35,410 bases of DNA from Pseudomonadota bacterium (GCA_008501635.1 QQUJ01000014.1:1-35410), one strand, 5' to 3'. Shown: positions 8,603 through 35,173, counted from the first letter of the stretch. The notes: generated from the letters alone by a model not told the origin. Made by a program: numbers and translations.

Positions 8603-8621
8603 AACGAATCTCCTGTTTATA

Positions 8622-10046: not shown

Positions 10047-10188
10047 CTTTTTCCCCACTTTCGACGGCGATATCTGGTAGATCGCCATGTTGAAAATATG
10101 TGCGTATTCCGTACATCCTAAGTGCACGTTTCAGCTGAGGATGACGATATTCAAAGCAATACTGTCCGTCAATAGCCATTCTATAAAT

Positions 10189-13834: not shown

Positions 13835-13866
13835 CTAGATAGATAAGCCGGATTGGAGATACCCTC

Positions 13867-15066
13867 ATGACTTGTTCACAACGTAGGTTGATTGCCGGCA
13901 CCCGTCCACTAGCCAACATCAAGGTTTTGGATTTCAGCTTCATGATGGCCGGTCCCTATTGCACGCGGATACTGGCCGACCTAGGTGCAACAGTTATCAA
14001 GGTTGAAACTCCCACCGGGGACTACGTCCGGAGTCGCCCACCGCTCCGCGACGGTTGGAGTTCGTACTACGGACATCTCAACGTCGGTAAACAAAGCATC
14101 ATCCTGGATCTCAAGAAAACACAAGCTGTCGAGATTGCAAAGCGCTTAGCAGCTGCCTGCGATATTGTAGTAGAGAACTTCCGACCTGGCGTTATGAAGC
14201 GCCTCGGGATTGACTTCGACGTCCTCTCTGCCATCAATCCTGAGTTGATCTACTGCGCAATCTCTGGCTTCGGCCAGTCGGGGCCGGCGGCAAATCGTCC
14301 CGCGTATGCACCCATCGTACACGCCGCCAGCGGCTACGACATGGCTAATCTGAGCTATCAGGACGACACACAGAGGCCGACCAAGACAGCTATTTTCATC
14401 GCGGACATCATGGCTGGCATTCAGGCCACGGTTGCTATCGAGGCGGCATTACTGGCACGTGAGCGAACACGCAGCGGGCAGTTTATTGACGTCACCCTGG
14501 TGGAGTCCATGTTCAACCTACAGGTCTATGAGTTCCAGGAAGCACAGTGTCCGACCGACGCACGCCGCCCATTGTATCAACCCCTGCGCACCTCCGATGG
14601 ATACGTAATTGTCGCACCGGTGACTCAGAATAATTTTGTGCAAATGGCTGCCTGTATTGGCCATCCTGAATGGTGCGTAGACCCACGTTTCACCACCGCC
14701 ACCTCGCGTGGACGAAACTGGGATTTGCTGATGTCCCTCGTCGAAACGTGGACGCGTCAGCGCTCTGGCAACGAATGCGAACACTTGCTTACGGCTGCAG
14801 GAGTCCCCTGTTCACGCTATTTGACCATCGGCGAAGCGATGCAAGATCCGCATTACGACCACCGCGGCAGTTTTGCCATGATCGAAGACCCGGCAGGCAG
14901 CTATAAGATTCCCAAGCTTCCGTTCCAAATGTCTGCTGTAGATATTGCACCTCGCTCCTATGTCGCCGACCATGGTGCCGATACCGAAATGGTATTGAAA
15001 TCGCTTCTCGACCTGTCCGACGACGAGATTGCTGCACTCACAGATAGCGGTGTATTCGGATCTTGA
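13867..15066 (+). CDS. CaiB/BaiF (class III) CoA-transferase
   Basis: The 399 residues span the whole family fold, from LANIKVLDFSFMMAGPYCTR through GATVIKVETPTGDYVRS and VVENFRPGVMKRLGIDF. D180 in FIADIMAGIQ is the expected catalytic aspartate that forms the acyl anhydride intermediate. RSGQFIDVTLVESMF follows as usual. It moves CoA between two organic acids. GGAGATACCCTC precedes the ATG, and the acyl-CoA dehydrogenase gene lies directly upstream. It is clearly different from the second CaiB protein at 29826. Donor and acceptor are unknown. Confidence 0.93.
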   Translation: MTCSQRRLIAGTRPLANIKVLDFSFMMAGPYCTRILADLGATVIKVETPTGDYVRSRPPLRDGWSSYYGHLNVGKQSIILDLKKTQAVEIAKRLAAACDIVVENFRPGVMKRLGIDFDVLSAINPELIYCAISGFGQSGPAANRPAYAPIVHAASGYDMANLSYQDDTQRPTKTAIFIADIMAGIQATVAIEAALLARERTRSGQFIDVTLVESMFNLQVYEFQEAQCPTDARRPLYQPLRTSDGYVIVAPVTQNNFVQMAACIGHPEWCVDPRFTTATSRGRNWDLLMSLVETWTRQRSGNECEHLLTAAGVPCSRYLTIGEAMQDPHYDHRGSFAMIEDPAGSYKIPKLPFQMSAVDIAPRSYVADHGADTEMVLKSLLDLSDDEIAALTDSGVFGS

Positions 15067-18925: not shown

Positions 18926-19010
18926 TGGTGCCCGGGGCCGGAGTCGAACCGGCACGGCAAAAGCCGGGGGATTTTAAGTCCCCTGCGTCTACCAGTTCCG
19001 CCACCCGGGC
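18926..19010 (-). tRNA. tRNA-Leu (anticodon UAA)
   Basis: The 85-base gene has a GCCCGGG/CCCGGGC acceptor stem, an encoded CCA end (18926-18928), the loop with TTAA giving anticodon UAA, a long variable arm (CGGCTTTTGCCG) typical of leucine tRNAs, and the T-loop GTTCGACTC. All stems pair. Its 3' end faces the decayed integrase and was probably the attachment site of the island. Confidence 0.95.
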
Positions 19011-19430: not shown

Positions 19431-20361
19431 ATAGGTAATTCCCCCATTTGTTGCAGCGCCCAGAAGTGGAGCCTGGGCCGCTCATGGTTATGCGTCCAGA
19501 GCCGGCAAGTGGCAAATTCCTGCGCCGTCTCTATGGACTCGTACAGGTACTGCTCCAGCCAGTCATAACGGACGGCGCAGTTGTATCGCTCCGCGCAAAC
19601 GTTCTGCTGCGGCTTGCCAGGCTGGATGTATCCAGCCGAATACGGCGTCGCTCGGCCCAGGCCGTCAGTGCCGCGCCGATGTACTCCGGCCCGTTGTCAC
19701 AGCGGATAGTGACAGGCTTTCCGCACCACTCGATGATCTGCTCCAGTGTGCGAATAACCCGTTCGGCTGGCAGCGAGAAGTCAACCTCAATGCCAAGCCC
19801 CTTTCGGTCGAAGTCGTCAATCATGTTGAACAGCCAAAAGGCCCGCCCATCCTCTAAACGATCATGCATGAAATCCATCGACCAGACTTCGTTGATAGCT
19901 CCCGGCACAGCCAATGGCTCGGGCTTCTCCCGCACTAGACGCTTCTTGTACTTGATGCGCAGGTTCAGCTCCAGCGCCCGGTAGATCCGGTACGCCGGCT
20001 TGTGGCTCCAGACGAACCCCTTGACGTTACGCAGCTACAGAAAGCAAAGGCCGAATCCCCAGTTGCGCTGATTGTGCGTCAGTCGTATCAGCCAGTCCGC
20101 AATTGCAGCATTTCCATCCGACAGCTTGGGCTGATACCGATAGCAGGTCTCGCTGACTACGAACGCTTGGCAGGCCAGCCGAATGCTCACCCCTTTCTGT
20201 GCCACAGCTCGGGGGATCGGTGTGCGGGGTTCGGCCTGCTTCAGGATGGCCATGATCTGCCTGTCTGTGTAGCGGGACTTCTTCATGTAGAACCTCCGCG
20301 AGGTACATTACGAGAAAATTCCACTTTTGAGGACCGCTACATTTGGGGGTGGATTACCTAT
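19431..20361 (-). mobile_element. IS3-family element, internally deleted
   Basis: ATAGGTAAT followed by a C-run and ATTTG at 19431-19450 is repeated inverted as CAAAT...GGGGGTGGATTACCTAT up to 20361, giving likely terminal repeats. The interior holds a short, damaged orfA/orfB pair. At about 930 bases it is shorter than the usual 1.2-1.3 kb. No target duplication is visible. Confidence 0.65.
19449..20288 (-). pseudogene. IS3-family transposase orfA/orfB remnant
   Basis: The start KKSRYTDRQIMAILKQAEPR is an orfA N-terminus, but after about 30 residues it jumps to an orfB-like segment (VSIRLACQAFVVSETCYRYQ), so most of orfA is deleted. A stop near 20036 follows GFGLCFL. The integrase core continues as [20 protein letters not shown], with D in the SMDFMHD block, and [19 protein letters not shown] with the second D. 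A frameshift follows before [20 protein letters not shown], which holds the catalytic glutamate. It is inactive. Confidence 0.85.
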
Positions 20362-20442: not shown

Positions 20443-21330
20443 TCAGGAGTAGTGTAATGCTTGCTTCGTGCCAGCAATTATCTGTGCTGCATTCAATGTA
20501 TTTTGTAGCAAACAAGCTATTGTCATAGGTCCCACACCACCCGGTACCGGAGTGATGGCGCCAGCCACACGAACTGCGCTATCGAAGTCGACGTCACCGA
20601 CGAGTCTGCCTCTGCCGTTTTGCTCTTCGATCCGATTGATGCCGACATCGATCACCACCGCACCGGGTTTAATCCACTCGCCCTGGACATATTTTGGCCG
20701 CCCCACCGCAGCGATCACGATATCCGCACGGCTGCATTCATCTGCCAGCTCCAACGTTCTGGAATGAGCAATTGTTACAGTACAGTTAGCCTGCACCAGA
20801 AGTGTGGCCATCGGCTTACCGACGATATTTGACCGTCCGATAACCAGCGCCTTTTTTCCATCCAATTCGGGTAAATGTTCGCGCAACAACATCAAACAAC
20901 CCATAGGTGTACAGGGCACGTGCGCGGTGCCCCCGGTAACCAGTCGACCCGCATTGATCACGTGGAATCCGTCCACATCCTTGACAGGATCAATGGTGTC
21001 GATGATCGCTTCTGGATCGATATGCGACGGTAGCGGGAGTTGCACGAGTATGCCGTGAACATCGGAGCGTCGATTCAGTTGCTCAATCTGGCTGATCAGC
21101 TCGCTCTGGGATGTATGTTGCGGAAGCCGGTAATCGAAAGATTGCATACCCGCTTCCGTAGTCTGGAGTACCTTGTTGCGGACATAAATCTCACTCGCTG
21201 GATTGTCTCCCACTAGAATGACAGCCAGTCCAGGCTTGCCTCTTGTTATTTGGGTGAACCTAGAAACATCGCCTGCAATACTTTTTCGCAGCCGTTCTGC
21301 GTATGCCTTTCCATCGATAATTGTGGTCAT
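20443..21330 (-). CDS. folD: Bifunctional methylene-THF dehydrogenase / methenyl-THF cyclohydrolase
   Basis: This 295-residue cytosolic enzyme converts 5,10-methylene-THF to 10-formyl-THF with NADP(H). Visible family marks are YVRNK with the catalytic lysine (Y49, K53), [45 protein letters not shown] for the cofactor, and [12 protein letters not shown]. The gene is last in the methyl-transfer cluster and starts about ten bases after the amidohydrolase stop. It takes the methylene group delivered by the MTHFR gene upstream to the formyl level. No formyl-THF hydrolase (PurU) or ligase follows here. It may be a second folD besides a housekeeping copy. Confidence 0.96.
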
Positions 21331-21340
21331 AGTTTATATC

Positions 21341-22486
21341 TCATCCATGACGAACGACCGTCTGCATTTTCCATAAATTCTCGCTTTTCACGAACGGATC
21401 GCCCGATAACACAATCATGTCCGCCCGGGCGCCTTTTTTTATATCCGATGAAGCGGTACCCCAGAGTTGCCTCGGGCGTGACGTGGATGCGCACAAGGCA
21501 TCTTTCATCGACACACCACAATCCAAAAAATGAAAAATCTCGTTGATCAGGCTTTTACCATGAGTTACCCCGGTACTACCGGCATCCGAGCCAGCGATCA
21601 GATTCACACCTATATCTGCGGCGAGTGCGACGTGCTCGGAATGAGAGTCAAGAATTCTCCGCAGTTTGGTCACGGTATCCGCGCTCCACCCCGCCGCTTC
21701 CGGAAATTCCCACTGATAATGAACCGGCGAAAAGGTCGGGACCCAAGCGGTACCTTGATCACTCATCCTTTTTAGAAGTTCACGTGTCATGAAAAAACCA
21801 TGCTCGATTGAGTCCACGCCGGCTGCAAGTGCGATACTGATGCCTTCGGCTCCACTGCAATGCGCAAATGTTTTGATATCCACTTCATGCGCGCACCTTA
21901 CAAGAAATGCAAGATCATCCAGATCGAACTGTGGATCTCCTTTGACTGATCCTGTTTCGAAATCAATTATGCCGGTTTGGATAATTTTAAGATCGTCGCA
22001 GGTTTCTGCTAGTTCGTTCACAGCGATCCGAATGTCCTCGCGCGTGGTGACTTCGCGTGCCATGAACGATCCATACCGTTTCGGGCGTCGCAATGCGATG
22101 CCAGCGGATCGCACGTCCAGGCATTTGCTATTCTCGCGAACGGCGTGGTTGATTCCATAGCGATCACCTGCATCCCGCACCAGCGTGACACCGCATTCTA
22201 AATTTCGTATTAGGTTCTCGTGCGCAACTTCCAGCATCTGTTCGAAATTCGATTCCAGATACCGAGAGCGTTTCTCATAGTCCAGTTCTCCACCATCCAA
22301 GAACAGGTGGCAATGCCCTTCGACCAGGCCTGGCATGATGAATTCACAAAGTTGTACATCGTCGGTTACCCGATGTTCTCCAGGGATCAAATCTTCAATG
22401 CAGTCATCTTCGATGACAAGTGTGACCGGCTCTGCATTATGATAGTGTTGACCATCGAACCAACTCTTTGCGATAAGTGTCTTCAT
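21341..22486 (-). CDS. Metal-dependent amidohydrolase (imidazolonepropionase-like)
   Basis: The 381 residues have the full amidohydrolase metal site: H58 and H60 in EGHCHLF, a lysine at 167 in DDLKII that could be carboxylated, H209 in TFAHCSG, H229 in SIEHGFF and D301 in AGSDAGSTG. The end, KGARADMIVLSGDPF, is typical of the superfamily. Such enzymes cleave C-N or C-O bonds in cyclic or linear substrates. Its ATG overlaps the stop of the methyltransferase gene as ATGA, so translation is probably coupled. This ties it to the methyl pathway, perhaps releasing or trimming the methylated substrate. The substrate is unknown. Confidence 0.88.
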   Translation of the reverse strand: MKTLIAKSWFDGQHYHNAEPVTLVIEDDCIEDLIPGEHRVTDDVQLCEFIMPGLVEGHCHLFLDGGELDYEKRSRYLESNFEQMLEVAHENLIRNLECGVTLVRDAGDRYGINHAVRENSKCLDVRSAGIALRRPKRYGSFMAREVTTREDIRIAVNELAETCDDLKIIQTGIIDFETGSVKGDPQFDLDDLAFLVRCAHEVDIKTFAHCSGAEGISIALAAGVDSIEHGFFMTRELLKRMSDQGTAWVPTFSPVHYQWEFPEAAGWSADTVTKLRRILDSHSEHVALAADIGVNLIAGSDAGSTGVTHGKSLINEIFHFLDCGVSMKDALCASTSRPRQLWGTASSDIKKGARADMIVLSGDPFVKSENLWKMQTVVRHG

Positions 22487-23370
22487 GCCGTTTTGTCATA
22501 GAGCTTCATAACGGTCATCAGTGCATCATGATCACGCAGTTTGATAATTTCACGAAATGTCCTCAGCACAAAATTATCATCTGTTAAGAGCTCATACTGA
22601 CGCCACGGTGTACCCAAAACGGTGTCAAATCCTGCGGGCATCGCCAACGTCAAAAAGGCACATTCTAACTGATGCTTTAAATCTGATCCGTCTACGGCTT
22701 TCGCGGGAAGATACTGCGGCAGATTGGACAGACCACCCATGATATGTACGCCATCAAGATCGGCGTCGTTATTGATCAACTGAATCCCATCAAGTGCCAT
22801 CTTCAGCAATCCTTCTGCGTCGGCAGCAAGAGTAATGATTGAAATATCGACAAAAAAGTCATCATTCATCATGTCTGGATTTTCTGATTTCAAAATACTA
22901 ATCATATCGCGGGCCGACGTGTGAACTTCCTCTCCCGTCTTGCATGCTACTAAGTGCCCGTCGGCAAACCTCTCTGATGACATTATTACCACCTTACAAG
23001 GGCGGATCTTTAGCGTTTCCTTCAACTCCCAACGAGATGCCGCAATTGAGTTGATGATTGGTTTTTGTCCTTTCGCCTTAGCGGGATCATAGGCCTTCAG
23101 TGCACCCTCAAGAACACTTGGATCGGGACAATCAATAGAGAGAGGCAAATCCACAACGGCTTGTATTTTCTGTATAAGTTCGATCAGAAACCCTGGACTA
23201 TCCAAAGCCTTCGTACCCGCATTTACATTTAGATAACTAGCGCCTGCCTCCGCCTGTCTAATTGCCAGCTTCTGAATTTCCTCGAAGTCTTCCTGCTCAA
23301 AAAAAGCTTGGGTCGATCGAAAGCCTGGATTGATTCTCTCACCAATAATAGTTAGCCCTGGGATGGACAT
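22483..23370 (-). CDS. Pterin-binding corrinoid:tetrahydrofolate methyltransferase (AcsE/MeTr-like)
   Basis: The 295-residue protein has the dihydropteroate-synthase-like barrel of MeTr proteins: GLTIIGERINPGFRST, AGASYLNVNAGTKALDSPG, LPLSIDCPDPSVLEGALKAY, IINSIAASRWELKE and later GVHIMGGLSNLPQYLPAK. It should move a methyl group between the corrinoid protein (28826-29605) and tetrahydrofolate, the MT2 step. TACAGGAGAG precedes ATG 23370. The gene overlaps the MTHFR gene upstream by 19 bases and the amidohydrolase downstream by 4 bases. The methyl direction (to THF) is inferred from the FolD and MTHFR neighbours. Confidence 0.9.
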   Translation of the reverse strand: MSIPGLTIIGERINPGFRSTQAFFEQEDFEEIQKLAIRQAEAGASYLNVNAGTKALDSPGFLIELIQKIQAVVDLPLSIDCPDPSVLEGALKAYDPAKAKGQKPIINSIAASRWELKETLKIRPCKVVIMSSERFADGHLVACKTGEEVHTSARDMISILKSENPDMMNDDFFVDISIITLAADAEGLLKMALDGIQLINNDADLDGVHIMGGLSNLPQYLPAKAVDGSDLKHQLECAFLTLAMPAGFDTVLGTPWRQYELLTDDNFVLRTFREIIKLRDHDALMTVMKLYDKTA

Positions 23371-24794
23371 GTAAACTCTCCTGTAGAGACGAGCGTGGAT
23401 GGACGTCCGGTCAGTACGCCGGATGCATGGACGATCTCCTGGATGAGATGTTCTCTCTTGGGAGCCATCAGGTGGATACCTGATATACCCTCGATTTCAT
23501 GGATTTCTTGAATCGTTTCTATGCATATCTTGATCCCTTCCTTTTTTGAATCTTGTGCCTTTTCAAGACGTGCAATAATTTCGTCAGGTATGTAAACACC
23601 GGGGACGTTGGCGCGCATCCAGCGAGCCGTGCGTGGTGAAACGAGCGGACCGACACCAACAAGTATGAAGCATCGGTTATGCAGCCCTTCTTCTCGGATG
23701 CACTCCATGTAACGCTTGAGTACTTCGATGTCGTAACAATACTGGGTCTGTACAAACTGGGCACCAGCTTCTATTTTTTTGGCTAGCCGCATCGGGCGTA
23801 AATCGAAGGGGGGTACAAAAGGATTGTCGACAGCGCCAAGAAAAATTTTTGGAGGGGTTGCTAGCTCTCTGCCCGACCGATATACACCATCATCACGCAT
23901 CCGCCGTGCTGTATCGAGCAGGGACACGGCATCAAGATCAAATACGGGTTTAGCTCCCGGGTCATCCCCGTTTTCGATGCCATCACCTGTTAGGCACAAA
24001 AGATTACGTATACCCAAGGCGGATGCTGATAAAAGATCACCTTGAATTGCGATGCGATTTCTGTCACGACAGGTCATCTGCATCACTGGCTCCCACCCCG
24101 CTTTTTCCAGCAACAGCGAGACGCCCATACTCGACATATGACAATGCGCACCAGGGGCATCCGTGACATTTAGCGCATCGATACAACCCTCGTAGTATTG
24201 CACGTGGTTAAGTACCGCATCGGGATCTGCTGAATCAGGGGGGGCACACTCTGAAGTGACGACAAAGAGTCCCTCGCGCAACAACTTCTCCAACCGACTA
24301 ACGGCACTTGATGTTGATGTATGTGGAGCATTTGTAAGTAACGGTTCAGGCCAGGGCTCTTGTCTCACAACTCGCAACCAACTCGATTTGCCGATGTAGT
24401 TATTTTCAACAGGCGGATTCGGGTCTTTCGGTATCACACCTAACCGCGTGCGTTGGGCTCCGCGCCAGGCTTCCATCCAAACACAAGGCATGTCCGTCTT
24501 GACCTCACAGTTGCCATCAGGACGAACGCCCCCGCACGGGCCATTGCGCATACTCTTTGGGCAGTTCATTGGACAGGCCATACCGGTTACCGAGAGCAGG
24601 CATGCCCCACACATTCTACAGTCGAAAAGAAGCCCCTTGACTGTGCGCTCGACGGCCGCTACGGGTTTCTCCACTCGATCGTATCCGATTACCCGTACGA
24701 CCGGTCGCACGATATGCAAGACAGCATCAAAGAGCCGATAGAGTGATTCCATCAGACCTGCATGCCGTACTACCCAGCGCCTCAACACGTACAA
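23352..24794 (-). CDS. MetV-MetF type fusion: zinc/iron-sulfur domain plus methylene-THF reductase
   Basis: Two domains lie in one 480-residue chain. Residues about 55-110 hold eight cysteines in DCRMCGACLLSVTGMACPMN, CPKSMRNGPCGGVRPDGNCE and PCVW, the MTHFR C-terminal-type domain known as MetV in acetogens. Residues about 165-470 form a MetF barrel (VVTSECAPPDSADPDAVLNH, NVTDAPGAHCHMSSMG, NLLCLTGDG, QTQYCYDIEVLKRYM). Here it probably oxidises methyl-THF to methylene-THF and passes electrons to an unidentified partner. Start is TTG 24794 with GAGGA five to six bases upstream; a GTG at 24788 is also possible. The upstream gap to the RACo gene is 104 bases. Confidence 0.9.
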   Translation of the reverse strand: MYVLRRWVVRHAGLMESLYRLFDAVLHIVRPVVRVIGYDRVEKPVAAVERTVKGLLFDCRMCGACLLSVTGMACPMNCPKSMRNGPCGGVRPDGNCEVKTDMPCVWMEAWRGAQRTRLGVIPKDPNPPVENNYIGKSSWLRVVRQEPWPEPLLTNAPHTSTSSAVSRLEKLLREGLFVVTSECAPPDSADPDAVLNHVQYYEGCIDALNVTDAPGAHCHMSSMGVSLLLEKAGWEPVMQMTCRDRNRIAIQGDLLSASALGIRNLLCLTGDGIENGDDPGAKPVFDLDAVSLLDTARRMRDDGVYRSGRELATPPKIFLGAVDNPFVPPFDLRPMRLAKKIEAGAQFVQTQYCYDIEVLKRYMECIREEGLHNRCFILVGVGPLVSPRTARWMRANVPGVYIPDEIIARLEKAQDSKKEGIKICIETIQEIHEIEGISGIHLMAPKREHLIQEIVHASGVLTGRPSTLVSTGEFTCPSQG

Positions 24795-24898
24795 TTACAT
24801 CCTCGCTCTCACAATGAGACCAGCAGGCATAATTATTTCTATACACCTAAGTGCTATCGGCGTAGAAATTGTTCTCTCGCCATAGTGACTAGTTGCCG

Positions 24899-26749
24899 TC
24901 ATATGTCCAGTGCGTCGACGAATATATCCTGGTAGTCCGGTTGTTCCGTCAGCGAAATGTGCTTGACTCGATGTGTAAGCTCCAAAGCACGTGAACGGGC
25001 TGATTCAGAAACGAGAACCATCTCCGCTCCCGCTAGTGCGGCGTTACCAACGTAGCGAATGCGTCCACAGGGGAGGGATGGAAGCATGCGTATACGCAAC
25101 GCACTCTCGAGGTTGATGTAATTACCGAATCCACCACACAGCAATATTTCATCGATTTCGTCATTCTTTACATTCATCACGCGCTGCAGCATCGTGATCG
25201 CAGAGTAGATCGCCCCTTTGGCGAGCTGCAACTGGCGAATATCGCTCTGCGTGAGGATTACAGCCTCATTTCTGCCAGACTGCTCTGCGTGTACGAGAAC
25301 GAAGGCATCGTCCTCCGTGTTATCCAGAAATCTGTTTCTGAGCCCGGCCGGCAAGGTGCTTCGGTTCGACTGCATTAGCCGCCCATGCGGTTCGATCAGA
25401 TCGGCATCGAGCATACTGGCAACCGCATCAATGAGTCCGGAGCCGCAAATTCCAATTGCCGGTGTATTTCCGATGACCTCGCATCGAACGTCATTACCGA
25501 TCTCCACGCCTTCGATCGCACCAAGCGCAGCGCGCATACCGTGTCGAATCTGTCCACCTTCAAACGCCGGCCCCGCAGGAGCTGAACACGCAACAAGTTC
25601 ACCCCCAGTCGCCATGATTACTTCGGTGTTTGTCCCTATGTCCACTAGTAGACGTGTTCCATCGCCTCCATCAATTCTAGTAGCGAGTAGTGCTCCGACA
25701 GCGTCGGAACCGACGAATCCGGCTATCAGAGGCAATAAATAGATGCAAGCCTGGGGCGCGGCCTTGAGAGGTAGTTCACGCGCCGAAAGCAGGAGCTCGT
25801 TGCGCACCACTGGTGCATACGGCGCGAACCCCAACTGAGACACATTGATCCCGAGTAAAATATGATGCATGCAAGGATTGGCGACGATTGTGATCTTATA
25901 GATATTCTGAGGTGCAATGTCCGCGTTTCTACACGCCTCGATAATAAAATCATTGAGCGTCTGAAGAACCCGCGTCTTGAGCGTCGCAAGGTTCTTTTCG
26001 GTGGACTGTACGAACGCGATCCTCGACATGAGGTCGCCGCCATAGATGGCCTGCGGGTTGACATTCGCTACCGAAGCAAGTCGCTTCCCGGACGCCAGAT
26101 CCAGCAGAGTGCCGACGATGGTCGTCGTGCCGACATCAAAGGCCATGCCGTATCTCCAGGCTCTGGTGTCACCTGGCTCGATAGCGATCACCGATCCGTT
26201 AAACGTGGTTAATGTCACCTGTCCTTTCTGCTGGCGTATTGCTGACGGAAGCTCACGAAGCACTGCGAGACTGAGATCGTTCGAGACTTTGGCCGGTAAC
26301 TCTGCAAGAACCCTCTCGGAGTCGGAGACGGGCTCATCGATACCTTTCAGCGAAGTGGCAGTTGAGAAATGTTGCTCAATTCCCGAGTTGACATGTGTCG
26401 GGCTGTCAGCTTCAGGGTCTAACTCACTAATGAAGATCTGGTGACCCACTTCGCTCGCGGGCGGCGCTACCAATACTGAGCACGCGGCAATTACTTTCGT
26501 CTGGCAGGCGAGGCGGAATTGCTCGCTAACCTCTTCTTGGCCAAGTTGCGTGTAGTCCTGATCCGTCGCTGGCGGCACATCACCTTTGAGAATCTTTACT
26601 CGACAACTACGACACCGTCCGCGGCCGCCGCAGGTTGTAACCACCTCGACACCTACGTTACGCGCAACGTCGAGCAAAGTCTGCCCGTCCCTTGAGACAT
26701 TGGTGTGTGTCGTAGTGATTTTGTTTTGAGATTCGAATGTGACGCGCAA
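24899..26749 (-). CDS. Reductive activator of corrinoid proteins (RACo/RamA-like, DUF4445 type)
   Basis: The 616-residue protein has an N-terminal 2Fe-2S domain with C40, C46 and C49 in TTCGGRGRCRSC and C82 in RLACQTKV. An actin-like ATPase domain follows (AFDVGTTTIVGTLLDLASG, LLVDIGTNTEVIM, GICGSGLIDAVASML, ILLCGGFGNYINLESALRI). Such proteins use ATP to reduce cob(II)alamin that forms by accidental oxidation back to cob(I)alamin. It would serve the corrinoid protein of this cluster. The start is TTG 26749 with AAGGA nine bases upstream; an ATG near 26754 is in another frame. A gap of 257 bases separates it from the gene upstream. Confidence 0.93.
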   Translation of the reverse strand: MRVTFESQNKITTTHTNVSRDGQTLLDVARNVGVEVVTTCGGRGRCRSCRVKILKGDVPPATDQDYTQLGQEEVSEQFRLACQTKVIAACSVLVAPPASEVGHQIFISELDPEADSPTHVNSGIEQHFSTATSLKGIDEPVSDSERVLAELPAKVSNDLSLAVLRELPSAIRQQKGQVTLTTFNGSVIAIEPGDTRAWRYGMAFDVGTTTIVGTLLDLASGKRLASVANVNPQAIYGGDLMSRIAFVQSTEKNLATLKTRVLQTLNDFIIEACRNADIAPQNIYKITIVANPCMHHILLGINVSQLGFAPYAPVVRNELLLSARELPLKAAPQACIYLLPLIAGFVGSDAVGALLATRIDGGDGTRLLVDIGTNTEVIMATGGELVACSAPAGPAFEGGQIRHGMRAALGAIEGVEIGNDVRCEVIGNTPAIGICGSGLIDAVASMLDADLIEPHGRLMQSNRSTLPAGLRNRFLDNTEDDAFVLVHAEQSGRNEAVILTQSDIRQLQLAKGAIYSAITMLQRVMNVKNDEIDEILLCGGFGNYINLESALRIRMLPSLPCGRIRYVGNAALAGAEMVLVSESARSRALELTHRVKHISLTEQPDYQDIFVDALDI

Positions 26750-27006
26750 GGCATGGATCCTTAATATTTGCTACGCCTCTTTGCGGCTGGTCATACACCG
26801 TATCCAAAGATTGCGGCGTACGATTTTCTCTCACATCGCACAGAAAACGTTTTGAATAGTCTTAAAGTCTTTTGAGTCTTCCGGTCACACTCCGGTAGGA
26901 GTTCTCTGACCGACTGCCGGTGCCTACGGTCAACACCGATAGATTGAGACTACCGTCCCCTCTTAACTCCGTGTCTCATAGGTGTGCGTGTTCCTGCACG
27001 CAGGTC

Positions 27007-27714
27007 TCACCTGGATATTTGCATCAATCCGAACAGTCCCGAGCGGGACATCTTGGGCGTCATCAGGAAACTGTCCGAAAGGCGTACCGGGAGTGCCGCA
27101 GTTCCAAATAATCCGAACAGGTCGCGTTGACCAGAAAGAGGCCAAGTTCCGTAACCAGGCGCAAGACGCCGTGTCAGAGTGTAACCCTGAACCCTGATGC
27201 GCTCTCTAATCCAAGTCGTGAAACTTTTAGTCGTCCCCTCTAAACTCATCCAACCGGCAGTTTCAAAAAAGAGCGCCTCAACCATCTCACCGCGCGACCT
27301 CAGCCGGTCGGTCTCTTCGTCGAACTGAGGCCCCATCGTCAAAAGCACTGGCAGCAGCGCGACACTGCTCGACAACACCTTTTCGGCTTCAGCACCCGGC
27401 GAAATGAGGATTTGTTCATCGTTCACTTTACATTCACCAATACGAGGCAGGGGCACCATTCGATACTGAAGAGCAGGGGCAGCCAGCGCGCGTGCTCGCG
27501 CCGCCATTCGCTCTGCTGCCTCGACAACGGCACGGGGTGCACGATTGGGTCCTTTGTATCCCTGAATACGAAGCATCGTAACCGGCTGCGGGTATACTGA
27601 CGCTGCCTCAAAGTCACCACCCCGAAATTCCAGTAGCGGTAACCTAGTCGCTAGATCTGAGTTCACAACTCCTAATCCAACTACCTTCAAGCCCCATTCA
27701 CCGCAAATTGGCAC
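27007..27714 (-). CDS. Free-standing MetH activation-domain-like protein
   Basis: The 235-residue protein ends with TRRLAPGYGTWPLSGQRDLF (PGYGTWPL at 186-193) and LPVRLSDSFLMTPKMSRSGL, matching the AdoMet-binding activation domain of cobalamin-dependent methionine synthase (RxxPGY motif). The middle, VALLPVLLTMGPQFDEETDR and MVEALFFETAGWMSLEG, also fits proteins of that type found with corrinoid methyltransferases. It starts at GTG 27714, with AGGA five bases upstream and 18 bases after the UroD-type stop codon. It may reactivate the corrinoid with AdoMet or help load it. With RACo next door the cluster has two candidate repair systems. Confidence 0.75.
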   Translation of the reverse strand: MPICGEWGLKVVGLGVVNSDLATRLPLLEFRGGDFEAASVYPQPVTMLRIQGYKGPNRAPRAVVEAAERMAARARALAAPALQYRMVPLPRIGECKVNDEQILISPGAEAEKVLSSSVALLPVLLTMGPQFDEETDRLRSRGEMVEALFFETAGWMSLEGTTKSFTTWIRERIRVQGYTLTRRLAPGYGTWPLSGQRDLFGLFGTAALPVRLSDSFLMTPKMSRSGLFGLMQISR

Positions 27715-27732
27715 ATCCTGTTCAGCCCTAAA

Positions 27733-28779
27733 TCACCCCAATTCGGGGTAGATACCCACTTCCTTGATAGTGTCCGTCAAAATACGCACGTGCTGGGGTG
27801 GAGTGTCGCGCGCTACGGCACAATCAGCGCCAAAAATATAGCCCCCGCCCGGAGCCGCATCCCTAATGCACGCTATAGCCTCATTACGAACTTCCTCGGG
27901 GGTGCCTTGATAAAGCGTCGCTACGGCTTTCACATTTCCCTGCGGTACAATTCGGTCACCATACTTTTTCTTAAATTCGCCTATCTCGACACGATCAACA
28001 TGTAGAATATCGGCATTCTCACAGCAGAGATCGAAACGATCATCCCAGCGTCCGCAGGTGTGGAAATTGATCGCTTTGGCACCTGCTTTCTTGATATCTC
28101 CGAAAAAACGTTTGGTGTATGGATGAGCGAATTCCTTAAAATGATCGAGCGAAATGCAATCCATATTCGCCACCGGATTCGACGTGCAGACTATGTCGGC
28201 ACCCGCTTCGACAAGCGCCTTACCATAGGCTGTGCAATTCTCGGTTGTGATCTCGAGTAGATCCTTGACGAAAGACGGATTATCGATCATATCCATGTAG
28301 AGTTCGGTGTTTCCCCGGATCAGACAAGCAGTGCGAAACGGAGGTGATGCCCAAGCGATCACAGGCATATCCGGTCCTACTGCCTTTTTGAGCTTTGCTA
28401 CGACGTCCAACAGGTAAGGCATACGGCCATCCTTCCATGGATCGACTGTTTTGAGCTTGTTGAGATCATCAGGCGACTGAACGCAGGGTTCTTCAATCCA
28501 GGGGGGATCGTCTTCCGGAATCACCATCTTAGCCCCAAGCGCCTCGTCGACAGCGGGAGTGCACCAAATGTCCCAAGCGGCATCGAGCTCGAAGTCCTCT
28601 ATGACCTTCAGCTGAGACTGCACGTAAAGATCCGGATCTCGATAGGCTTCTTCGAATTTGGCGCCATAGTACTTCAATCCGAACTCACGCGATTGGAGTA
28701 CCAACGGTACCCGGTCAGGAAGCTCACGGCGTAATACCGCCATGATGCGTTCCATTGAGGTCATATCATTCTTTCTCAT
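27733..28779 (-). CDS. UroD/MtaA/CmuA-family corrinoid methyltransferase
   Basis: The 348-residue barrel belongs to the uroporphyrinogen-decarboxylase-like methyltransferases. The zinc site is present as H240 and C242 in FHTCGRWDD and C320 in GGGYIFGADCAV, which activates thiol or other methyl acceptors and donors in MtaA- and CmuA-like proteins. ERIMAVLRRELPDRVP at the N-terminus is typical. It lies 46 bases after the corrinoid-protein gene and has GGGAGAAATCCAC before its ATG. It should carry the methyl group from the unknown substrate to the corrinoid protein (MT1 step). It is not heme-pathway HemE, whose conserved N-terminal blocks are missing. Confidence 0.88.
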   Translation of the reverse strand: MRKNDMTSMERIMAVLRRELPDRVPLVLQSREFGLKYYGAKFEEAYRDPDLYVQSQLKVIEDFELDAAWDIWCTPAVDEALGAKMVIPEDDPPWIEEPCVQSPDDLNKLKTVDPWKDGRMPYLLDVVAKLKKAVGPDMPVIAWASPPFRTACLIRGNTELYMDMIDNPSFVKDLLEITTENCTAYGKALVEAGADIVCTSNPVANMDCISLDHFKEFAHPYTKRFFGDIKKAGAKAINFHTCGRWDDRFDLCCENADILHVDRVEIGEFKKKYGDRIVPQGNVKAVATLYQGTPEEVRNEAIACIRDAAPGGGYIFGADCAVARDTPPQHVRILTDTIKEVGIYPELG

Positions 28780-28825
28780 GTGGATTTCTCCCAGATTGCA
28801 AGTGAAGCCGTCAATAGGGCGGCGA

Positions 28826-29605
28826 CTACACAGTTGCCGAATGCGTCGCGGCCTTTGGCTTCAACGTACCACCATGGACAAATTCTCCATCCCAGGAAGG
28901 GCTCAACAGCGTCTTACCAACATCCACCGCGCTCATCGCTTCAGGTGCCCACCCATCGGAACCGATTTCCTGCGCGAACTTTGCGGTTACCGGAGCGCCT
29001 CCACAAATCACTTTGACTTTGTCTCGAAGGCCTGCTTCCCGCAGCGCCTCGATCGTAGTCTTGTGCATCATCATGGTCGTACTGAGCAGCGCGGACATCC
29101 CCACGATATCCGCATTTACAGCCACGACTTTCTCGATGAACATTTCGGGTGTTACGTTAACACCCAAGTCATGTACCTCGAATCCCGCGCCCTCGAACAT
29201 CGTGGCCACTATTCCCTTGCCGATGTCGTGAAGATCGCCCTTCACGGTCCCGAGCACGATAGTGCCTCGCGGCTTTGAGCTGCCTGGTGAAATGAGCGGT
29301 TTCAAAACGGCGAATCCTGCATTCATGGCGCGTGCAGTAACCAAAACTTCGGGGATGAAAGCGGTCCCGCGCTTGAATCGCTCGCCGACCACGGCAAGTC
29401 CCGCCTGAAGGCCATTCACTAGAATCGCAAGTGGCTCTAAGCCTGAATCAAGGGCCCGCTGCGTAGCATCTGGGACGTTATTGACATCACCGTGTTCGAC
29501 CAGATCGGAAAGTGCTTTCAGGGCCTCGATTTGTTCACTCGTTCCCGAAACCTCCACGCGGTCGCCTGTGACCGGATCGATAATTTGCATCGTGCGTTCT
29601 GTCAT
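28826..29605 (-). CDS. Corrinoid (B12-binding) methyl-carrier protein
   Basis: The 259-residue protein has the helical cap (LVNGLQAGLAVVGERFKRG, FIPEVLVTARAMNAG) and the Rossmann B12 domain with the base-off/His-on signature D124-L-H126-D-I-G129, then MSALLSTTM and ICGGAPV. H126 should be the lower cobalt ligand. It shuttles methyl groups between the UroD-type methyltransferase and MeTr. Its N-terminus and C-terminal tail (after residue 235) are longer than in MtaC/MtvC-like carriers of about 210 residues. GAGGAGG at good spacing before the ATG predicts strong translation, and the gene comes first in the methyl-transfer set. Confidence 0.95.
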   Translation of the reverse strand: MTERTMQIIDPVTGDRVEVSGTSEQIEALKALSDLVEHGDVNNVPDATQRALDSGLEPLAILVNGLQAGLAVVGERFKRGTAFIPEVLVTARAMNAGFAVLKPLISPGSSKPRGTIVLGTVKGDLHDIGKGIVATMFEGAGFEVHDLGVNVTPEMFIEKVVAVNADIVGMSALLSTTMMMHKTTIEALREAGLRDKVKVICGGAPVTAKFAQEIGSDGWAPEAMSAVDVGKTLLSPSWDGEFVHGGTLKPKAATHSATV

Positions 29606-29662
29606 CGGAAATCCTCCTCACCCTACATGTTGTCTCGTATATACAGAGAGTCTACTTTGGTG

Positions 29663-29678
29663 TAGCGCATCAGCGCTA
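29663..29678. promoter_or_regulatory. Palindrome upstream of the corrinoid-protein gene
   Basis: TAGCGC-ATCA-GCGCTA is a perfect 6-bp inverted repeat around a 4-base centre, about 58 bases before the corrinoid start in a 220-base gap. It could be an operator or an RNA hairpin. No T-run follows, so it is not a typical terminator. Confidence 0.4.
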
Positions 29679-29825
29679 ATGATACTAATTGAACCTGTAA
29701 CATCGAATATATTGATATCCGCATTCACTTTTGAGGTTGGTCACACCCACCACCCTTCCTGCGGGTACAGAGCAAACCTCGCGTAAAATCCCTACAAAAA
29801 GCATGCAGAGACCGGTGATGATCGT

Positions 29826-31022
29826 TTACGGTATCGACCCACTGACAGGTCGATCTATCGAGTCGCCGACCCATTCCTGCCACACCTCTTCCGTGTGTGC
29901 GCCAAGCTCCGGTGGAGGCAAAAAGATCTTAAATTTGTAGTCGGAAAGAGTAATTGGATAGGCAGTCGTACGGGTTTGAACACCATTGGGAAGGGTCAAC
30001 GGTAGTACTAAACCCAACGCTTGTACCTGAGGGTCGTCGACAACCTCTGGATAGCTGTTAATTGGCGCGCAAGGGATCCCTCGGCCGTCCATTTCCTCCA
30101 ACCATTCCGCTGCCGTCCGCACAACAAACAGAGGTTGTAGAATTTCCAGCAGCGCTGTCTGGTTATGGGCACGAAGCTGTTGTGTGAGAAAACGAGGATC
30201 TTCCGCAAGATCCGGTCTTGCGACCGCCTCGCAAACCGAGCGCCAAAGTTTGTCGTTGCCTGCCGCAATAACGAAATAGTCATCGCTGGCCTTGTATGCC
30301 TGGTAAGGAGCATTGCGCGGATGCGCAGAACCAAGTCTGCGTGGAGCATTTCCGGTTCCGAAATACTCGCTTGTCTGCAACGTCGAAACGCCAATAAGGC
30401 TGGCCATGAGTGAGCAGTCAATATACCCACCTTTACCCGTTTCCCGACGCCGCGTAAGGGCAGCCATGATCGTATACGCCGAATAGAGTCCGGCACAATA
30501 GTCACCGACTGGCACTCCACATTTTACCGGTGCCCCTCCTTCTTCACCGGTCACGCTCATGAGACCACTAATGGCTTGAATAGTGACGTCGAACGCGCCC
30601 TTCGAAGCATATGGCCCCGTCTGTCCGTACCCTGAAATGGAACAGTAGACAAGTCCCGGATTCTCTTTGCTTAATTCTTCATAGCCCAGCCCTAGCCGGG
30701 TAAGCACTCCTGCGCGGAAGTTTTCGATCAGCACATCAGCGTGAGAACACAGGCGGCGTAGGCGGGCTATATCGTCTGAATCCTTGAGATCAGCGGTAAT
30801 GCTGCGCTTATTCCGGTTTAATGAGGCAAAATTTTCGCTGAACACTTGTTTGCCTTTGCCGGTCAGGGGCGGCCAGTTACGCATGCCATCGCCACCGTCT
30901 GGCCGTTCTACCTTCACAACGTCTGCACCTAAATCAGCAAGTAGAGATCCGGTAAACGGACCAGCGGCGATCTGCCCCAATTCAAGTACCTTCAAACCTT
31001 CTAGTGGTGAACGATCCGACAT
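29826..31022 (-). CDS. CaiB/BaiF (class III) CoA-transferase, second copy type
   Basis: The 398 residues are full length, beginning LEGLKVLELGQIAAGPFTGS with DLGADVVKVERPDGGD and ENFRAGVLTRLGLGYEEL. D174 in GVPVGDYCAGLY is the expected catalytic aspartate. It differs clearly from the protein at 13867-15066, so the two probably serve different acids. GAGGG lies nine bases before the ATG. The gene sits between the Rieske oxygenase and the corrinoid genes on the same strand, which suggests that the methylated substrate or its product is handled as a CoA thioester. That link is inferred. Confidence 0.93.
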   Translation of the reverse strand: MSDRSPLEGLKVLELGQIAAGPFTGSLLADLGADVVKVERPDGGDGMRNWPPLTGKGKQVFSENFASLNRNKRSITADLKDSDDIARLRRLCSHADVLIENFRAGVLTRLGLGYEELSKENPGLVYCSISGYGQTGPYASKGAFDVTIQAISGLMSVTGEEGGAPVKCGVPVGDYCAGLYSAYTIMAALTRRRETGKGGYIDCSLMASLIGVSTLQTSEYFGTGNAPRRLGSAHPRNAPYQAYKASDDYFVIAAGNDKLWRSVCEAVARPDLAEDPRFLTQQLRAHNQTALLEILQPLFVVRTAAEWLEEMDGRGIPCAPINSYPEVVDDPQVQALGLVLPLTLPNGVQTRTTAYPITLSDYKFKIFLPPPELGAHTEEVWQEWVGDSIDRPVSGSIP

Positions 31023-31129
31023 GTTGTGTAGCCCTCACTGCTGTCTGTTGGTCAATTGCCAATCCATAAACTACAACGCCACGAGTTCATCAATAGTTTA
31101 GGCTGAGTCCTAATACGGATTTTGCCATC

Positions 31130-32230
31130 TCAGCTTGCCTCCTGAGCGGCGCCTTCTCTCTGTTTCGCGGCGTACTGAATCTCCTCACGTCGCATTTGGC
31201 CGATTACTTGGCGCGCACGTTGAACAGCCTTGTCCGATTGCAAAAACAACTCAGAATAACCATCATCTGGATATTCGAGCATCTTCTGTTGCCGCTCTAG
31301 AGCCCAGCGGTCTTGATTTACGACATCAGGAAACATTTCAGCAATGCGATCGACCGTCGACTTGTCCGGATCTCCTAGCGACATGTGCTCCGCTGGGGAG
31401 CTAACGCACCAGCGCCACACATTGCGATTATCATCGATCGGGGTGTGACTGTGGTACAGCACATAGCCTCGATCAATGCCGGTATCGAGTTTACCCGTCG
31501 GAGCCACACGAAGCTCTACTCGCGTCAAGCCGGGACTCAGCATGCAATGCGTATGTTCGCGATCAACCACGTCGTAATGGAACCAGTCAACGAAGTAAGG
31601 TGGTTGTTGGTAGTGTGTCGCCCGACGGAGCGTCTTAACATAGCGATACCCCTCAATTTCTCCCTCCTCCAGCTCAATAGGTAGAAGACTGTTTGCATAG
31701 TCGCCAATATTGCCGTCATGAAGCGGATAGAAATGAGTAATATCCAGTAGATTCTCAATTACCAAAAGGTAGTTTGCCGGAATGTGCATTGGTCCAGAAT
31801 CCACCGAACTCCACGCAGGATCGCTGATTTCTGGTGTTCGGGGTGGCCGGAAACTGGAAGACCTTGCGGGGTTGCCTGTCCAAATCCAAACCAACCCATC
31901 CTGCTCTATAGCAGGAATTGGTTTGAGCCGAGCTTGCTCAGGAATTTTGCTATCTGGTTGGGCGGGAATTTTCACACACCGACCTTCGTCGTTATAACAT
32001 AAACCGTGGTACGCGCACTCCAGCAAACCGTTGTCAAGAAGCTTGCTCTCCGACAGTGGAAATCTCTTGTGGCAGCAGCGGTCATCGAAAGCAACAACTT
32101 CACCCTTTGTGGTGCGCCAGATTACTATCGGCCTTCCGGCTACCTGCTGGCCGACAAGTGCACCGGTTTGGAATTCACGGGAAAGTCCGGCGACATACCA
32201 ACAGTCCTTAAGGTAGTTGTAAGATTGCAT
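31130..32230 (-). CDS. Rieske non-heme iron oxygenase, VanA-like (O-demethylase type)
   Basis: The 366-residue protein begins YNYLKDCWYVAGLSREF, like the WYVA starts of vanillate demethylase oxygenases. The Rieske cluster ligands are C52-x-H54 and C72-x2-H75 (CAYHGLCY). The iron site is D163-x2-H166-x4-H171 in NLLDITHFYPLH. Such enzymes oxidatively remove methyl groups or hydroxylate aromatic and other compounds, with formaldehyde as the C1 product in demethylation. I chose ATG 32230 because AAAGGAG precedes it and the family start follows; the frame extends to 32278. Its reductase partner lies just upstream. The substrate is not established. Confidence 0.92.
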   Translation of the reverse strand: MQSYNYLKDCWYVAGLSREFQTGALVGQQVAGRPIVIWRTTKGEVVAFDDRCCHKRFPLSESKLLDNGLLECAYHGLCYNDEGRCVKIPAQPDSKIPEQARLKPIPAIEQDGLVWIWTGNPARSSSFRPPRTPEISDPAWSSVDSGPMHIPANYLLVIENLLDITHFYPLHDGNIGDYANSLLPIELEEGEIEGYRYVKTLRRATHYQQPPYFVDWFHYDVVDREHTHCMLSPGLTRVELRVAPTGKLDTGIDRGYVLYHSHTPIDDNRNVWRWCVSSPAEHMSLGDPDKSTVDRIAEMFPDVVNQDRWALERQQKMLEYPDDGYSELFLQSDKAVQRARQVIGQMRREEIQYAAKQREGAAQEAS

Positions 32231-32314
32231 AGGTCGATCTCCTTTCAATCGGGATCTTTTGTTTCCCTCATACCCCATAAATCACGGCTAAATTTTTCTT
32301 GACGCAGAATCGAG

Positions 32315-33298
32315 CTAAAGATCTAGCACCAATTCAAGGCTTTTCGATCGGGCGCAACAAACGAGGACAAAATCTTTTCGATCATCCTCACTCAATACCG
32401 AATCACGATGTTCGGGTTGCCCCTCTACGTAACGGGTGAGACAGGTTCCGCAATAACCTTGCTCACACGATGTCTCTATAAAGACATCGTGCTCGCGCAG
32501 CACTTCGACTATAGACTTGTTTGGTGGAATCTCGAGCTCAAGCTTGCTGCGAACGAGTCGGACCTTGAACGCGCGGTTACCCTTCGCATCGGTCGAAACA
32601 GGCGCAGAAAAGTGCTCGAAGTGAACCGTTCCTTTAGGCCAGTGTGCTGCTGCGGCGGCGGCGGCCTCCATAAATCCTGGCGGACCACAATAGTACAAGT
32701 GAGTGTCGGCTTTCGTATCCTTCAGAGTCGCAGCCAAGTCCAGCCCCCGAAGCGGATTACCACTGTCGTAATGCAGTTTTGCCTTGCCGGCACGCACCAA
32801 AGGCGCCAGTCGATCCAGAAAAGGCGTTCTGCTACTGCTTCGCGTGCAAAAGTGCAGTAGAAACTCTTCACCACGGTCTTCTAGCTCCTCAACCATCGCC
32901 ATCATGGGAGTAATGCCGATGCCGCCTGCGATCAGAAGGTGTCGACGGGCCGCAGAAGCGAGGGGGAAGAAGTTACGCGGCGTGCTGACACGAATGAGAT
33001 CACCCACCCGGAGGTTATCGTGCATTGCGCGAGACCCGCCATGGCCTGTCGCTTCCCGCTGAACGGCGATAACATAGCGATGGCGTTCGTTGGGATTGTT
33101 GCAGAGAGAATACTGCCGCACCAAACCTGCATCTACGTGCACATCTATGTGGGCACCAGCAGTGAATCTGGGAAGCTCTTCATTGCCTGGGTGCCTGAAT
33201 TCAAAGCTGGCAATACCCTCCGCTTCCAGCACGATAGCATTAAGCTGTAGCTGTAAAGTATCGGATAATGATTCATTCGGGAGCACTTCTTGACTCAA
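32315..33298 (-). CDS. VanB-like oxygenase reductase (FMN, NAD, 2Fe-2S)
   Basis: This protein of about 327 residues has the phthalate-dioxygenase-reductase order: FMN-binding barrel (RQYSLCNNPNERHRYVIAVQ, with the RQYSL motif), NAD domain (LLIAGGIGITPMMAM, YYCGPPGFM) and a C-terminal plant-type 2Fe-2S domain (SCEQGYCGTCLTRYVEG, then C in VLVCCAR). It passes electrons from NADH to the Rieske oxygenase encoded 84 bases downstream. The best start is TTG 33298, with AGGAG nine bases upstream; the frame extends to another TTG at 33316. It is the first gene of the long minus-strand run. Confidence 0.92.
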   Translation of the reverse strand: MSQEVLPNESLSDTLQLQLNAIVLEAEGIASFEFRHPGNEELPRFTAGAHIDVHVDAGLVRQYSLCNNPNERHRYVIAVQREATGHGGSRAMHDNLRVGDLIRVSTPRNFFPLASAARRHLLIAGGIGITPMMAMVEELEDRGEEFLLHFCTRSSSRTPFLDRLAPLVRAGKAKLHYDSGNPLRGLDLAATLKDTKADTHLYYCGPPGFMEAAAAAAAHWPKGTVHFEHFSAPVSTDAKGNRAFKVRLVRSKLELEIPPNKSIVEVLREHDVFIETSCEQGYCGTCLTRYVEGQPEHRDSVLSEDDRKDFVLVCCARSKSLELVLDL

Positions 33299-34285
33299 TG
33301 ACCCTGCTCCTAACAATTACGTTTACACTCTAGCCCCACTCCCTCTCACCGCGTTTAGCTGCGCTTAGTTCTTGTAGAATCAATTAATTGGGGCTCAGAT
33401 CGGCGTTCTCCGCCTTGTGTTTAAGGTGAGTGTAGTATCGTGTTCCCGTCACCTGTTGCTAGCACTATAGGGCTACAGCTATATTTAGAAAAACGATATT
33501 TATTGATCCTCTAGAATTCGAAAACTTGATTCTTAGATGGGCATCGTTTAAAACCTGTGCTCAATCTGTAACTGTCGTAACTACCTCATTGGCGATAGGT
33601 TAGGAGCGTTCATGCGACGAATCTGCGGACGATTTCCGGTGTGCGCACTTGGGAGGATAATTTTCCGCAACCGTCGCGTCTTCTCCCCAGCAGTGACGCT
33701 ATTTTGCCACTCGTTGTATCTCGCACTACATCCTTGGGCGAGTTCTACTCGCGAAATCTCTCATGTTATTTCAGCGGATACCCTTGCCAGTAATTTCGCT
33801 AGTCGAGCCATCAAACAGCCATGAGAATCGATGACAAGGAAGTTTGGAATTGGCGCTGATACTGAGTGACCAGAAGAACCTATGGAGATCACGCTATAGA
33901 ATTTCATCTACAACAACTTCGATCAGCTGACGCCAATTCCTCAGTTTACTGAAATGAGGCATGGTCCTACTGAGTTGGCCGGCAAATAGTGCGTAATTTT
34001 TCAGGCAGCATAACGAACATGTTTTTCGGGAAACAGGTTTTGGATTATGTGTGGTTGCTTCAATCTGCGGTGCAGATGGTTACGCACTGCCGAAATCATT
34101 TCGGCCTTGTCACGCGTACGGCGCTTGGTACTCGTACCAAGCCATTATGCAGGACACGCTATTAAAAGCAGTGATAAGCAATGCAGCGGTACCGTTCCGC
34201 GAACCTCTCGCTCGCACCGCGGTGACAGATTTGGTCAAGCGGCAATGTGGTACCGAATTCCGTCGGCCAATTGAGGCTTAAATAT
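33299..34285. other. Gap of about 1 kb between the divergent reductase and LysR genes
   Basis: No intact gene is recognised. A frame at 33612-33824 (+) starts with basic residues and a hydrophobic stretch and could be the signal-peptide end of a lost outer-membrane or secreted protein. Frames at 34047-34281 (+) are open but match nothing I know. The region must hold the promoters of both flanking genes, but I see no convincing pair of hexamers. It is likely worn-down coding sequence. Confidence 0.4.
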
Positions 34286-35173
34286 ATGAACATTAAGCAG
34301 CTTGAAACGTTTTACTGGATCGAACGACTTGGGAGTTTCAGTGCAGCGGCCGAGAGGGTTTTCACAACTCAGTCCACGGTTTCAATGCGCATACAGGAGC
34401 TAGAGCAATCTCTAGGAGCGAAACTATTCGATCGATCAGGACGAACAGTGCGCCTGACACCGAAGGGAAAAGAGATTGTGCCTTATGTCCAGCAGCTTAT
34501 CGAGCTGGTCGCTGAGATGCAGCAACGATTTACCTCATCGGACGCATTGAGCGGATTCATACGGTTGGGTGTTGTGGAGGCCGTAGCGACAACATGGTTG
34601 CCCCGTTTCATCCGTATGCTCCAGGAGCGCTACCCGCGCGTAACGCTGGAACTTGAGGTGGCCCTCTCACTAGAGCTGACCGAAAAATTGCACAATGGTA
34701 CGCTCGATGTGATTTTCAGTTTGGGTCAATCCCCCGGACCTAATTATGCTTCAGAATCACTGGGTTCGCTGCAGATCGAATGGATGGCAAGCTCTTCTCT
34801 TGGCATCGCGGAGAACGACGTCGGGCCTGCCCTTTTTGAATATTGGCCCTTCATCACGCTCAATCGCAACTCATACCATAGTGCCAATATCCAGGCTTGG
34901 ATGACAGAGAACAAGGTACGCTGTGGTCGGACCATCGTGTGCAACTCGATGAGCGGCGTCGCTATTCTGGTCAATGCTGGCTTGGGATTCACGCTGCTAC
35001 CCACGTTCTGCTATCGACAGGACATCGATGCGGGCCATCTAAAGGTATTCGGTACTCCAGAGGGAATGCAACCGGTGGAGGTCTTCGCCATTTACCCTAT
35101 GGACGAATACCGGCCTATCGCGCGGCTGATAACCGAGATTGCCGTGGAGGTAAGCGACTTCACCATTCTGTAA
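34286..35173 (+). CDS. LysR-family transcriptional regulator
   Basis: The 295-residue protein has the family N-terminal helix-turn-helix (SFSAAAERVFTTQSTVSMRI, about residues 16-35, then QELEQSLGAKLFDRSGRTVR) and a C-terminal effector domain (GFIRLGVVEAVATTWLPRFI, GVAILVNAGLGFTLLP). The ATG at 34286 has GAGG ten bases before it; the open frame starts upstream at 34247, but the family begins with this methionine. It is divergent from the reductase/Rieske genes, though a 1-kb gap lies between, so it is a candidate regulator of the demethylation cluster. It ends 14 bases before the IS5 end. Confidence 0.92.
   Translation: MNIKQLETFYWIERLGSFSAAAERVFTTQSTVSMRIQELEQSLGAKLFDRSGRTVRLTPKGKEIVPYVQQLIELVAEMQQRFTSSDALSGFIRLGVVEAVATTWLPRFIRMLQERYPRVTLELEVALSLELTEKLHNGTLDVIFSLGQSPGPNYASESLGSLQIEWMASSSLGIAENDVGPALFEYWPFITLNRNSYHSANIQAWMTENKVRCGRTIVCNSMSGVAILVNAGLGFTLLPTFCYRQDIDAGHLKVFGTPEGMQPVEVFAIYPMDEYRPIARLITEIAVEVSDFTIL

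Follow-up and report, generated by a model that had tools for sequence, protein, structure and literature searches.

Oxygenase-based and corrinoid-based demethylation are usually viewed as alternatives of aerobes and anaerobes, and a gene run that holds both raises the question of whether the two serve one pathway. Such a run was found in a stretch of 35,410 nucleotides from a Pseudomonadota bacterium (QQUJ01000014.1), referred to here in its full length as the window, which is the whole of contig C14 of a 3.93-Mb genome (G000) that is 98 % complete and without close relatives in the collection used. The explanation to which the gene content points, with a probability only a little short of even, is a single catabolic locus in which methyl removal would proceed by two chemistries, both acting on one methylated acid or on a substrate and its product. 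Each kind of enzyme is already known, and text searches of the open literature found no paper describing a joined Rieske and corrinoid demethylation cluster, relative to which literature the joined locus is new. Its occurrence on two branches would demonstrate the use of oxygenase and corrinoid demethylation together in one bacterial pathway. Its genes provide a lead both to a methylated carboxylate and to an MtaA-like methyltransferase, not yet characterised, from outside the strict anaerobes.

Organization of the gene run

The run occupies positions 20443-33298 on the minus strand and leads from a VanB-type reductase, a Rieske oxygenase and a class III CoA-transferase through a complete corrinoid demethylation pathway down to FolD (Table 1). 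The sequence-only reading of this DNA had described a Rieske pair and a CoA-transferase leading into corrinoid methyltransferase genes on one strand, and this is borne out by the open reading frames and the Pfam domains. All three genes of the Rieske unit (29826-33298) are open and intact at the positions given, and the run is longer than first described, continuing on the minus strand to 20443. The Rieske open reading frame was listed as 31130-32278, with its true start read at 32230, behind the sequence aaaggag, and the reductase starts with TTG at 33298 behind an aggag box.

The gaps within the Rieske unit are 84 and 107 bp, the gap between the unit and the corrinoid protein gene is 220 bp (29606-29825), and a further 257 bp precede the RACo gene. 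A scan for promoters and terminators predicted fewer sites in the real sequence than in shuffled controls and left the 220-bp gap empty, so that it speaks neither for nor against a single transcript. No inverted repeats were found between the LysR and reductase genes at the settings used.

Table 1 Features of the gene run and of the divergent regulator gene, with positions counted from the first nucleotide of the window
Feature	Position	Strand	Domains and remarks
LysR-type regulator	34247..35173	+	Divergent from the run; Pfam HTH_1, LysR_substrate
VanB-type flavin/2Fe-2S reductase	32315..33298	-	FAD_binding_6, NAD_binding_1, Fer2; TTG start
Rieske non-heme iron oxygenase, dicamba/guaiacol O-demethylase-like	31130..32230	-	Pfam Rieske and VanA_C
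Class III CoA-transferase, SUGCT-like	29826..31022	-	Pfam CoA_transf_3 (E 8e-124)
Corrinoid (methyl carrier) protein with N-terminal extension	28826..29605	-	B12-binding, B12-binding_2
UroD-superfamily (MtaA/CmuA-like) methyltransferase, putative substrate:corrinoid	27733..28779	-	URO-D (E 2e-68)
Protein with weak similarity to the activation domain of B12-dependent methionine synthase	27007..27714	-	Met_synt_B12 (E 7.6e-4, below cut-off)
RACo-type reductive activator of corrinoid protein	24899..26749	-	RACo_C_ter, Raco_middle, Fer2
Methylene-THF reductase (MTHFR) fused to DUF5981	23352..24794	-	Pfam MTHFR (E 2e-36), DUF5981
Pterin-binding methyltransferase, putative methyl-corrinoid:THF	22483..23370	-	Pterin_bind; PRK07535 (E 8e-34)
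Amidohydrolase, gene overlaps that of the pterin methyltransferase	21341..22486	-	Amidohydro_1
FolD, methylene-THF dehydrogenase/cyclohydrolase	20443..21330	-	THF_DHG_CYH; PRK14188 (446 bits, cut-off 396)

Just past the FolD end of the run lie a tRNA-Leu gene (18926-19010) and an open reading frame resembling a fragment of an IS3-type transposase (19531-19935), and an rve-type transposase is encoded at 547-1587. The tRNA gene and the transposase traces may be signs of an island or of rearrangement in this region.

The Rieske unit, its relatives and the type of substrate

The domains of the reductase, FAD_binding_6, NAD_binding_1 and a C-terminal Fer2, follow the order of VanB. The oxygenase has both the Rieske 2Fe-2S motif and the 2-His-1-Asp iron site, and the C-x-H...C-x2-H pattern, the segment DITHFYPLH and the Asp aligned with D294 of DdmC are invariant or nearly so in its clade. 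The VanA_C domain was detected at E 4e-22, and the tree of Rieske proteins included no characterised VanA sequence. A sequence search against solved structures placed DdmC first (E 1e-28), followed by SxtT, SxtDIOX and 7qwt, and the AlphaFold model (pLDDT 90.8) likewise had its best fold match in DdmC (Z 36.4, 2.2 Å over 337 residues), with the guaiacol O-demethylase 7qwt at Z 33.9, SxtT at 30.3 and NdmA at 29.7. Ranks 1 to 8 of the fold comparison were taken by DdmC entries and 7qwt, the hydroxylase SxtT coming next. DdmC and 7qwt resemble the window protein in fold, in the Rieske ligands and in the DxxHxxxxH and Asp iron ligands at identities of 25 % and 21 %, respectively, whereas the window protein belongs to a clade of its own with a conserved CoA-transferase and LysR-type regulator. 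The Rieske protein did not fall in with enzymes of an unrelated substrate, the outcome that the sequence-only reading had named as refuting, and the proposed demethylase function is backed both by DdmC and 7qwt and by the linkage of frmA to related loci.

A scan of the collection yielded 23 loci related to the window Rieske gene, and a plasmid collection held close relatives in Paraburkholderia, Cupriavidus, Caballeronia and Bradyrhizobium. The LysR-reductase-Rieske-CaiB cassette is conserved in alpha- and betaproteobacteria: LysR and reductase genes adjoin the Rieske gene in most related loci and a CoA-transferase gene does so in many, with LysR proteins 40-61 % identical in at least 14 related loci and reductase orthologs 50-63 % identical. 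The formaldehyde dehydrogenase gene, frmA, lies near the cassette in four related loci (L003, L016, L035 and L036). A gene for S-(hydroxymethyl)glutathione dehydrogenase is found downstream of the Rieske gene in the Paraburkholderia plasmid locus, after genes for a transporter, a CoA-transferase and a crotonase, and tblastn with the Paraburkholderia frmA returned 71-87 % identical copies in L003, L016 and L036. As the viewed part of each genome was some 20 kb out of several Mb, frmA is estimated to occur near the cassette by chance in well under one locus of the set, and its linkage supports the release of formaldehyde as the predicted outcome of the Rieske step. An frmA homolog with 61 % identity lies on another contig of the window genome, and the genome that carries the second joined locus (G066, see below) keeps frmA too.

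The CoA-transferase had been read from sequence as CaiB, of which the class III assignment (CoA_transf_3) stands but the carnitine type does not. The match to the SUGCT structure 9br7 has E 3e-91 against 2e-25 for carnitine-type CaiB, and the profile scores are 114 bits for CaiB (cut-off 413) and 357 for SUGCT, so that L-carnitine CoA-transferase was rejected in favour of the far better matching succinate-hydroxymethylglutarate type. In several related cassettes a crotonase gene is also present, along with a transporter of the TRAP, branched-chain-type ABC or AtoE kind, and this make-up, together with the SUGCT-like CoA-transferase, suggests a small carboxylic acid as the substrate. No further C1 enzymes came up among ten flanking genes of other loci that were scanned with Pfam.

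The crotonase recurs after the CoA-transferase in L013 (10612-11415) and L008 (12413-13165), where, by eye, MPGL stands in place of QPE; because the second catalytic Glu of enoyl-CoA hydratase is thus missing, these proteins may be hydrolases or decarboxylases. An arginase-family gene in L004 (4733-5800), two genes before the Rieske gene, is a possible hint of a nitrogen-containing substrate at that locus.

The corrinoid module and the proposed pathway

Genes for the substrate methyltransferase (URO-D), the B12-binding protein, the Pterin_bind protein and RACo all lie within the one run, and judged by their domains the corrinoid genes make up a complete predicted route from methyl through THF to formyl-THF in a Cmu-like layout. 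The nearest PDB structure to the UroD protein is MtaA (4ay7, E 7e-26), with the HxC and the later Cys of the zinc site kept, and the match to CdmB is far weaker (E 4e-10); its predicted structure was poor (pLDDT 58) and was left out of the analysis. The best PDB match of the pterin methyltransferase is 4o0q (E 6e-15), and PRK07535 is a methyl-THF:corrinoid methyltransferase family. Because this separate pterin methyltransferase is present, we infer that the UroD protein takes a methyl group from the substrate and does not give it to a thiol. The MtaA-like zinc site raises the thought of a thioether (S-methyl) substrate, for which no direct support was found. The amidohydrolase matches structures of the imidazolonepropionase/amidohydrolase kind (E 3e-25), the activation-like protein has 33-39 % identical homologs in the corrinoid modules of L013, L027 and L033, and a protein 59 % identical to the MTHFR-DUF5981 protein is encoded by a corrinoid cluster elsewhere in G066.

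The Cmu chloromethane pathway of aerobic methylotrophs comprises CmuA, CmuB, MetF and FolD and, like the window, brings together a UroD-type methyltransferase, a corrinoid protein, a pterin-binding methyltransferase, MTHFR and FolD. CmuA fuses the UroD and corrinoid domains, which are separate open reading frames in the window, and the window UroD protein is only 24 % identical to a CmuA on a plasmid record; unlike Cmu, the window run is joined to a Rieske cassette and includes a RACo activator. The soluble coenzyme M methyltransferases MtaA/MtbA and Mlp share the HxC...C zinc site with the window UroD protein, for which 4ay7 is the best structure, but the window has its own pterin methyltransferase, and for this reason its acceptor is probably THF rather than CoM. 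Type 1 Mlp clusters have been reported in obligate anaerobes only, and the examined clusters were without a pterin methyltransferase (PMC10418091). MtvB, OdmB, MtoB and CdmB, which are UroD-type O-demethylases and a dehalogenase, share with the window their superfamily and a three-part organization (methyltransferase I, corrinoid protein, methyltransferase II).

A distant UroD protein (about 28 % identical) recurs with a corrinoid protein and RACo in four Rieske-bearing genomes (L027, L028, L030 and L033). The activation-like protein is present in three of these four modules, and the second zinc Cys is missing from the three distant UroD copies that were aligned.

In the proposed pathway, a small methylated carboxylic acid would induce the locus via the LysR-type regulator, and the Rieske pair would use O2 and NADH to split off one methyl group as formaldehyde. 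The CoA-transferase would place CoA on the acid, whose skeleton could then enter steps resembling beta-oxidation, and the UroD protein would charge Co(I) with another methyl group, donated either by this substrate or by its product. From there the pterin methyltransferase would hand it to THF for oxidation to formyl-THF by MTHFR and FolD, and both routes could rejoin at methylene-THF and formate. A more specific and more tentative version, somewhat on the unlikely side, is a dedicated pathway, assembled twice and under one LysR, that would strip two methyl groups from one molecule, one released as formaldehyde with O2 and the other passed to THF via cobalamin.

Recurrence of the pairing and alternative explanations

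A second joined locus, L013, is carried by a Hyphomicrobiaceae MAG (G066; contig JAHDXT010000049), in which a corrinoid operon is divergent beside genes for LysR, reductase, Rieske protein and CoA-transferase, and the LysR gene separates the two modules, with 94 bp from it to where the corrinoid operon begins. Identities to the window are 72-73 % for the UroD protein, 64-66 % for the corrinoid protein, 55 % for RACo and 33 % for the activation-like protein. The N-terminal extension of the corrinoid protein is common to both loci, other corrinoid proteins being 45-48 % identical, and the L013 pterin methyltransferase gave no match to that of the window at the threshold used and belongs to the same NCBIfam family. 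The window groups with L003 in the Rieske tree and L013 with L016 and L037, both clades being supported, and placing the window and L013 in one clade was rejected by the AU test (p = 3e-5; p 0.012 for the CoA-transferase). The UroD ortholog was found in no further genome in four surveys with partly overlapping samples of 385, 397, 369 and 398 genomes, and in one of 20 Rieske-bearing genomes.

Since a one-time origin of the pairing is rejected on the Rieske tree and the UroD ortholog is absent elsewhere in the surveys, the link between the two modules is probably functional. The pairing rests on two loci, L013 coming from a metagenome assembly and the window likewise by appearance, and the idea that the modules belong together gains support from the recurrence on a separate Rieske branch and from the LysR gene between the modules. 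In about 20 related loci the Rieske gene occurs and the viewed stretch shows no corrinoid module, which means that the Rieske step can do without one. Genome G066 holds several corrinoid systems, and the probability that some corrinoid module adjoins the cassette there by chance was estimated at about 2-3 %, and less for this ortholog. Several further corrinoid proteins are encoded on its contigs C6, C15, C27, C37 and C70 (L046-L057 and L063), and the C15 cluster joins a corrinoid protein, a distant UroD protein, RACo and the DUF5981-MTHFR (59 %) to a TRAP transporter.

Four other explanations were weighed. The sequence-only reading had offered a switch with oxygen supply. In this case one and the same methyl group would be removed by the Rieske pair at plentiful O2 and by the corrinoid module at scarce O2. 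The occurrence of two methyl-removal chemistries in one locus is consistent with this, as is the fact that some relatives have frmA by the cassette and others a corrinoid module, but G000 and G066 both keep frmA as well, no oxygen-sensing regulator is among the annotated genes, and the sole neighbouring regulator is one LysR. Nor does a corrinoid route imply anoxic use, since Cmu-type demethylation operates in aerobic methylotrophs (PMC13222342). The switch is weakened and not favoured on these grounds and keeps a small share of the probability.

A share of the same size falls to the modules being mere neighbours that act on different substrates, adjacent through the clustering of C1 genes. 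The 220-bp gap, the many Rieske cassettes that stand alone against only two linked loci, and the possibility of rearrangement raised by the transposase remnants and tRNA-Leu gene would suit this explanation; against it, orthologous UroD and corrinoid genes recur in another arrangement with another Rieske branch, and the UroD ortholog is otherwise missing from the four surveys.

It is less probable still that the Rieske step is preparatory, a hydroxylation or dealkylation whose product alone would be used by the corrinoid methyltransferase. The hydroxylase SxtT is among the close folds, and the oxygenase and CoA-transferase genes come ahead of the corrinoid genes, but the two best folds are O-demethylases, and the linkage of frmA in relatives indicates formaldehyde release.

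A split methionine synthase of the kind described in marine bacteria (PMC12478193), passing methyl groups from methyl-THF through the corrinoid protein to homocysteine and so in the direction opposite to demethylation, is resembled by the MTHFR, pterin methyltransferase, corrinoid and activation-like proteins, and the MtaA-type thiol/zinc site of the UroD protein would also suit it. It was rejected as highly improbable because G000 has a complete MetH elsewhere (1766 bits, contig C23), and the rarity of the UroD ortholog and the Rieske linkage would go unexplained. Besides this MetH, the window carrier is the only corrinoid carrier protein found in G000 by the MetH profile. The single catabolic locus with two methyl-removing chemistries is the reading preferred here.

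Two further groups of catabolic genes lie in the window. A second run on the minus strand (2613-10127) encodes a UbiD-family decarboxylase, a TRAP permease, an NMT1-like binding protein, an AMP-binding enzyme and a zinc alcohol dehydrogenase, and possibly serves the use of an aromatic acid. An acyl-CoA dehydrogenase and a second class III CoA-transferase (32 % identical to the first) are encoded on the plus strand (12695-15066), after an IclR regulator (10411-11163).
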